64,000 nucleotides of DNA from Saccharopolyspora thermophila (lineage in GTDB: Bacteria > Actinomycetota > Actinomycetes > Mycobacteriales > Pseudonocardiaceae): contig NZ_BMMT01000003.1 in NCBI RefSeq assembly GCF_014646075.1, forward strand, positions 248,001-312,000, in the 5' to 3' direction. The translations under genes were made by a program, and so were the position numbers. Shown here piece by piece: positions 54,942-56,161 of the stretch. A model generated the notes under the pieces. The model ran no database searches. It saw nothing but the letters and a program-made list of their open reading frames with translations, and was not told the origin of the DNA. The number at the start of each line of letters is the position of its first letter. The stretch's first letter is position 1.

Positions 54942-55256
54942 TCAGATGTCCTTACCGTTACGACGAGAGATGCGAACCTTCTTGCCGTCCTCACCGATGC
55001 GGTAGCCGACTCGGGTGGGCTTGCCGTCGGAGTCCAGGATCATCACGTTGCTCACGTGGATCGGCGCTTCCTGGGTGACAATGCCGCCGGACTGCACACC
55101 ACGCTCGGTCCGGGAGACCTTGGTGTGCTTCTTGATGCGGTTGACACCCTCGACCAGCACACGCTGCTCCTTGGGCATGGCCTTGATGACCTTGCCCTTG
55201 GCGCCCTTGTCCTTGCCGGAGATGACGACGACCGTGTCACCCTTCTTGATCTTCAT
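54942..55256 (-). CDS. rplX: 50S ribosomal protein L24
   Basis: This 104-aa L24 begins [23 protein letters not shown] (KOW motif) and has [12 protein letters not shown]. It initiates 23S assembly at the tunnel exit. It overlaps rplN by 1 nt. Confidence 0.97.
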
Positions 55257-55624
55257 CACAAAACCTCCGGCGCGAGCGAGATGATCTTCATGAACTTCTT
55301 GTCGCGCAGCTCGCGGGCGACCGGCCCAAAGATACGGGTGCCCCGCGGCTCGCCGCCGGGCTTGATCAAAACCGCGGCATTCTCGTCGAAGCGGATGTAG
55401 GACCCGTCCGCCCGACGCTTCTCCTTCTTCTGCCGGACGATGACGGCCTTGACCACATCGCCCTTCTTGACGCCGGCACCGGGGATGGCTTCCTTGACGG
55501 TCGCCACGATGATGTCCCCCAGGCCCGCGTACCGCCGACCCGACCCACCGAGGACCCGGATCGTGAGGATCTCCTTGGCCCCGGTGTTGTCGGCGACACG
55601 CAGTCGCGACTCCTGCTGGATCAC
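55256..55624 (-). CDS. rplN: 50S ribosomal protein L14
   Basis: This 122-aa L14 begins (GTG) [18 protein letters not shown] and has [17 protein letters not shown]. It binds at the subunit interface near L3. The GTG follows AGGAG at 7 nt. A 261-nt leader with nested hairpins separates it from rpsQ, so it probably begins its own transcript. Confidence 0.97.
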
Positions 55625-55643
55625 GTCTGACTCCTGACCCTAA

Positions 55644-55668
55644 GTGCCCGAGCGCTCTACCCGGGCAC
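55644..55668 (-). promoter_or_regulatory. Third hairpin in the rplN leader
   Basis: GTGCCCG and CGGGCAC arms with an 11-nt loop lie about 20 nt before the rplN start and could mask or expose the ribosome-binding site. Confidence 0.45.
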
Positions 55669-55725
55669 ACTCTGGCACGCCAAATTTCCGACCTGACGCG
55701 CGCGGTCAACTTCCGGCACGCGAAC

Positions 55726-55825
55726 CGGCCGATCGCTGGGACAATCGCCCCTGCGTTGCTCGGGTGCGGGTGTCCCGCAGCGATCGGCCGACCGCGGACT
55801 GTGCCAGTGCGGGATACCCGCACCC
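55726..55825 (-). promoter_or_regulatory. Mutually exclusive hairpins upstream of rplN
   Basis: Two inverted repeats share an arm. Repeat 1: 55726-55743 with 55771-55790 (18 paired, 2-nt bulge). Repeat 2: 55762-55779 with 55808-55825 (17 of 18). Positions 55771-55779 belong to both, so only one can form. The arrangement resembles a terminator/antiterminator switch. Confidence 0.6.
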
Positions 55826-55885
55826 AGTCGGACGACATGAGGCGCCACAGAAAGCGCAGTGCCGCTCATGTCGCCCCCCGGACGT

Positions 55886-56161
55886 TTACTTGGCCTTCTC
55901 CAGGATCTCCACCAGCCGCCAGCGCTTGGTCGCCGACAGCGGACGGGTCTCCATCAGCAGCACCCGGTCGCCGACACCGGCCGAGTTGGCCTCGTCGTGC
56001 GCCTTGACCTTGGTGTTGCGGCGCATCACCTTGCCGTAGAGGGCGTGCTTCTTGCGGTCCTCGAGGGAGACCACGATCGTCTTGTCCATCTTGTCCGAGA
56101 CGACGTAGCCCTCGCGCACCTTGCGGCGGTTGCGCTCCACGCCCTGTCCTTTCTCGCTCAT
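55886..56161 (-). CDS. rpsQ: 30S ribosomal protein S17
   Basis: This 91-aa S17 begins [22 protein letters not shown], has [24 protein letters not shown] and ends EILEKAK. It overlaps rpmC by 4 nt. It is the last gene before the structured rplN leader. Confidence 0.97.

Follow-up and report, generated by a model that had tools for sequence, protein, structure and literature searches.

Probable repeat insertions and a candidate three-way-junction leader in the rpsQ–rplN gap of Saccharopolyspora thermophila

Results

Overlapping inverted repeats in the rpsQ–rplN gap

The overlapping inverted repeats in the rpsQ–rplN gap of the window (the whole stretch of 64,000 nucleotides analyzed here) are real; they were probably produced by insertions of a small interspersed repeat, with a neighboring three-way-junction leader as the regulatory candidate of the region. 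The gap spanned 261 nt (55625–55885) between rpsQ (uS17; 55886–56161; the tblastn anchor in relatives) upstream and rplN (uL14; 55256–55624; GTG start; the first gene of the spc cluster), both genes being on the minus strand. An inverted-repeat search identified two overlapping elements: (i) I1, with arms 55762–55779 and 55808–55825 and 17 of 18 positions paired, and (ii) I2, with arms 55726–55738 and 55778–55790 and all 13 positions paired. In the fold, I2 extended inwards past a small asymmetry (55740–55745 with 55772–55777) to a total of about 19 bp, and this extended I2 and I1 had about 8–9 bases in common. The order of segments in the minus-strand RNA was C (55825–55808), B (55790–55772), and A (55745–55726). 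The gap folded at −148.1 kcal/mol compared to a shuffle mean of −119.8 kcal/mol (z = −5.38, with 0 of 200 shuffles as good), and the 109-nt core folded at z = −4.6 against shuffles. An earlier note on this DNA had described two inverted repeats of about 18 bp sharing nine bases and a third hairpin just before rplN; both repeats were present, and the third hairpin (55668–55644) turned out to be P3, one of the helices of a conserved three-way junction (see below). A fourth hairpin (55876–55830) came after rpsQ.

Two repeat copies and the older hairpin I2

Two copies of the repeat were identified in the gap: (i) copy 1 (55802–55878, minus strand), a nearly complete unit resembling mycobacterial interspersed repetitive units (MIRU; see below) and composed of an SD-like GGGGGG, an ATGAGC start, hairpin 1, CCGACTGG, and hairpin 2, which scored 57.7 bits with covariance model R3, the window row being part of that model, and (ii) copy 2 (55761–55779, plus strand; arm B), a partial and inverted unit sitting within the I2 loop and common to L005 and L006, which scored 23.8 bits with R3 and was outside the training set. 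Hairpin 1 of copy 1 (I3; 55830–55876, minus strand) was an inverted repeat enclosing the start codon, and its stem covaried across the repeat family; hairpin 2 (55807–55823, minus strand), GTGCGGGTATCCCGCAC, corresponded to arm C, was recognized by the recurrence of its palindrome, and formed by itself in the minimum-energy fold. A left-out profile of the repeat, built without the window and L004 rows and searched over the 64 kb, gave copy 1 as its best match (55808–55877, minus strand; E 2.5e-8) and copy 2 as its second best (55761–55780, plus strand; E 7e-4).

Each I1 arm was itself palindromic (TGCGGGTRTCCCGCA), C and B were the same palindrome, and B can pair with C because both repeat copies carry it. 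Relatives displayed empty sites at the rpsQ–rplN junction (e.g., L019 versus L004). The two window copies had diverged, and, unlike that of a typical unit, the ORF of copy 1 did not end at the rplN start, and window-type copies (L003 and L004) had no stop/start overlap with the next gene. A 70-codon ORF (55657–55869, minus strand; predicted only) ran from the copy 1 start through I2 and helix P2 to a stop inside P3, and it had no Pfam match. The competing hairpins look like leftovers of a small interspersed repeat, not a genetic switch; the origin of B from this same repeat is the weaker of the two assignments, since the piece is only 19 nt long.

The element into whose loop copy 2 had been placed, I2 (55726–55790, minus strand; arm A with 55778–55790), was an older conserved hairpin. 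With B removed from three rows beforehand, 99.4% of its cells were paired in 16 sequences, and 4 of 11 pairs had changed on both sides; the stem was kept with compensatory changes in the genus. The possibility was considered that I2 is the working element itself, namely a U-less terminator, a processing site, or an RNA-stability hairpin dividing S10 from spc expression: genus-wide compensatory changes and a loop that tolerated an insertion while the stem was conserved spoke for it, but I2 was without a U-tract, and a different hairpin or none occupied the same place in L012 and L026, leaving this reading rather unlikely. It is compatible with the explanation by repeat insertion plus a leader and not opposed to it. 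The gaps of L016 and L027, one from a genus member and one from another genus in the family, shared roughly 110 nt of additional inserted sequence (GGTAAGCGGAACCTCA ... GAGAACCCGCCGGTGGTCAC).

The repeat family across genomes

The repeat unit was about 74 nt in length and interspersed, and it also formed tandem arrays with a period of 74 or 75. Its palindrome recurred in the window genome (at C11 as a tandem pair), and the contexts had further elements in common: a Shine-Dalgarno, then ATGAGC and GCTCAT separated by a variable stretch, and, a few letters on, CCGACCGG followed by the palindrome. A 25-nt core pattern (≤3 mismatches) matched 30 of 61 relatives, and the reversed pattern, serving as the control, gave 0 matches in the same 61. 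R3 had 26 matches in the window genome (E ≤ 0.01) and, among relatives, 48 in G015 and 39 in G022; matches were few and weak in the other families of the order, G046 excepted. The latter, a 2.4-Mb genome from another family of the same order, contained eight R3 matches (best E 1.5e-6) and possibly harbors a related repeat family. In G003, a single contig, 10 of 10 matches to the repeat pattern lay on one strand.

The stem holding the start codon covaried (e.g., ATGAGC/GCTCAT versus GTGAAC/GTTCGC), and the second hairpin was almost invariant. Among 43 translated copies drawn from the genus and the family, the end of the short ORF overlapped a start codon in 31 (24 at ATGA/GTGA and 7 at TGATG), a mechanical count from codon letters alone in which a few long ORFs also ended at such sites; most of the remaining ORFs continued in frame. 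The flanking genes tested were aromatic lyase–urocanase (hutH–hutU), FecCD–FecCD, an amidase gene, and MlaE–MlaD (yrbE–mce). At the MlaE–MlaD junction L113/L155 (G000:C11:161792-161887) of the window genome, the repeat was opposite to the genes, and at this junction in the relatives L197 and L205 it ran in the gene direction and was fused in frame to the mce start. A conserved repeat-encoded peptide was rejected: two reading frames were in use (RPGAGVPQ or ADRVRVSR), and it is thus the nucleotides of the repeat, not a peptide, that are conserved. Judged from its codons, the short ORF would be coupled translationally to the next gene, and the repeat may be mobile. A literature search for such repeats in Saccharopolyspora or Pseudonocardia returned none.

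The repeat was compared with two known kinds of interspersed element. MIRU (Supply et al. 1997, as described in PMC12548453) resemble it in being interspersed at gene junctions and in tandem arrays and in possessing an internal ORF that overlapping stop/start codons tie to the following gene, the overlap being read in 31/43 copies here; the present repeat differs in that it comes from another bacterial family, has two hairpins, the first covarying and enclosing the start codon and the second invariant, and is represented in the window by decayed copies, one of them inverted. It may be said to work like a MIRU, a likeness judged on organization, and it is not called one. REP/REPIN elements are likewise short, palindromic, hairpin-forming units scattered through intergenic DNA, but the unit here includes a short ORF with an end fitted to the following gene. 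That the repeats act purely as DNA, as REP/REPIN-like mobile elements or as protein-binding palindromes, would agree with the two palindromes per unit, the GGAG at the foot, and the dispersed and inverted copies; it appears improbable, because the window genome contained no RAYT-type (Y1) transposase (no PF01797 match) and a short ORF whose end suits the start codon after it, as in 31 of 43 copies, is nothing that a DNA-only element would need.

A conserved three-way junction before rplN

Directly before rplN lay a conserved three-way junction (55635–55708, minus strand; recognized by covariation; 41.5 bits with model R2) composed of helices P1 (55704–55708/55635–55639), P2 (55691–55701/55675–55685), and P3 (55660–55668/55644–55652), all on the minus strand. 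P1 adjoined the GGAG read as the rplN Shine-Dalgarno (55631–55634, minus strand), its 3′ strand being one base away. The approximately 75 nt before rplN were nearly invariant in the genus save for the covarying positions; 99.2% of cells in P1–P2–P3 were paired, seven pairs had changed on both sides, no shuffle was as good, and every slid control was far lower. P1 had little covariation support of its own because it hardly varied. P3 varied freely in length and was absent from distant family members, which kept P1 and P2, the latter covarying.

The distribution of the leader was examined with R2, which was built without rplN letters and with P3 removed from the rows having it; R1, a model that hit every rplN start owing to the rplN letters in it, was uninformative and was replaced by R2. 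Among 346 genomes of the class, R2 gave 11 matches, each directly before the rplN start: the window genome, one other member of its family, and nine members of family f8, which is probably Mycobacteriaceae. Within the family, 75 of 150 genomes (26 of 46 genera) had exactly one match each and half (75 of 150) had none, and rplN came next at 20/20 matched loci examined. Twenty R2-found sequences outside the model were 97.7% paired, with five pairs changed on both sides. Covariation in alignments A2 and A3 was counted on the structure from the window's own fold; the count in A8 was more independent, though its sequences were model-found.

Rfam 15 gave no match above the gathering score and contained no family for this leader; the sub-threshold matches sot2652, mir-341, and sX7 were dismissed as chance, being far under the cut-offs and positioned on the inverted repeats. 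A second, unrelated conserved structure, GUUCNGCMAGGCUC–stem–GAGAACCNGCNNGAC, was found directly before rplN in Streptomyces, Micromonospora, Arthrobacter, Nocardioides, Knoellia, Cellulomonas, Amycolatopsis, and Microbispora (loci L034, L035, L036, L038, L047, L052, L059, L063, L070, L077, L085, L088, L102, and others); one example (L077) had no Rfam match.

Two known systems were set beside the leader: ribosomal-protein leaders (r-leaders), surveyed in 2020 (PMC7247131), and the E. coli spc operator, which is bound by uS8 and located at rplE (PMC10931766). All share a structured, conserved RNA that sits immediately ahead of a ribosomal-protein gene and beside the ribosome-binding site, but the present leader lies before rplN and the E. 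coli operator at rplE. Two features expected of an r-leader, namely a covarying RNA structure and a consistent place before a ribosomal-protein gene, were both found here, and an L14 leader is unmentioned in the text of the 2020 survey (PMC7247131). The segment 55635–55708 probably serves the spc operon as a ribosomal-protein leader controlling the rplN genes, its most likely role being that of a translational operator to which a ribosomal protein from the S10/spc region would bind. Neither 16S nor 23S rRNA was found in the window genome assembly. The invariant block could instead be a DNA promoter or operator, given that it contains TTGACC and that in M. tuberculosis ResR/McdR binds a promoter belonging to the rplN operon itself (PMC10336103). 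This alternative is quite unlikely: substitutions tracked base pairing in P2 and P3, P3 was free to vary in length and was absent outside the genus, no sigma-70-like site was found, and the published ResR site is upstream of a −35 element (PMC10336103).

Alternative pairing of A, B, and C

The genomes of the genus bore on the alternating A–B–C switch that the earlier note had proposed for the S10–spc junction. Among the 22 genus genomes, C was confined to the window genome and L004 and B to the window genome, L005, and L006, so that the two occurred together, and B–C pairing was possible, in the window genome alone; the I1 pairing thereby failed the conservation test set by the earlier note. 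The I1 conformer folded at −137.9 kcal/mol, costing about 10 kcal/mol relative to the best fold, and in the minimum-energy structure C folded up as its own hairpin, closing before B would be available. No U-tract terminator was found at the gap hairpins. That A, B, and C form a true attenuator or switch, B pairing with C or A upon a protein or ligand signal, is very improbable: both pairings are present and overlap in a region far more stable than shuffles, but the alternative pairing is unconserved, its fold is the costlier one, both I1 arms are copies of a dispersed repeat, and a terminator-like U-tract is lacking. The mutual exclusivity of the B pairings is real on paper but a product of two insertions. 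Of the earlier view of this junction as a site of responsive control, what survives is the conserved RNA located there (I2 and the three-way junction, the latter a good candidate for such control by a protein), and the alternating switch is not supported.

Discussion

In the explanation favored here, repeat insertion beside an rplN leader, the MIRU-like repeat of about 74 nt would have entered the rpsQ–rplN gap twice: (i) a near-complete copy in the operon direction, supplying C and the hairpin after rpsQ, and (ii) a partial copy in the opposite direction, supplying B within the loop of the older I2. The shared palindrome would then let B pair with C, and the mutual exclusivity would be a by-product. 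Elsewhere, at operon gene junctions, the short ORF with its own SD and start would allow the downstream gene still to be translated, because its stop overlaps the next start or it fuses in frame. As for the leader, its position and structure suggest regulation by a ribosomal protein: one encoded nearby (uS8, uL14, uL24, uL5, or uS17) may bind P1/P2 and lock the junction, and the locked junction would keep 30S subunits off rplN and so set the translation level of the spc operon.

According to a 2024 review (PMC10931766), it is not known how the spc operon is controlled outside gammaproteobacteria. A broader joint reading, to which about even weight is given, would have (i) spc autoregulated through an undescribed rplN leader in Pseudonocardiaceae and another family of the same order (probably Mycobacteriaceae), (ii) a second, unrelated leader type at the same place in many other Actinobacteria, and (iii) a selfish repeat of Pseudonocardiaceae whose start codon is concealed within a covarying hairpin and which persists by translational coupling. 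The case also carries a caution: the insertion of repeats can, as a by-product, generate strong hairpins that exclude each other. The leader structure was previously uncatalogued, and with a covarying leader that a model finds once per genome, the question of spc control can be put to a direct test. The repeat family points to the existence, outside mycobacteria, of a MIRU-like strategy in which translation is kept flowing by a mobile short ORF.
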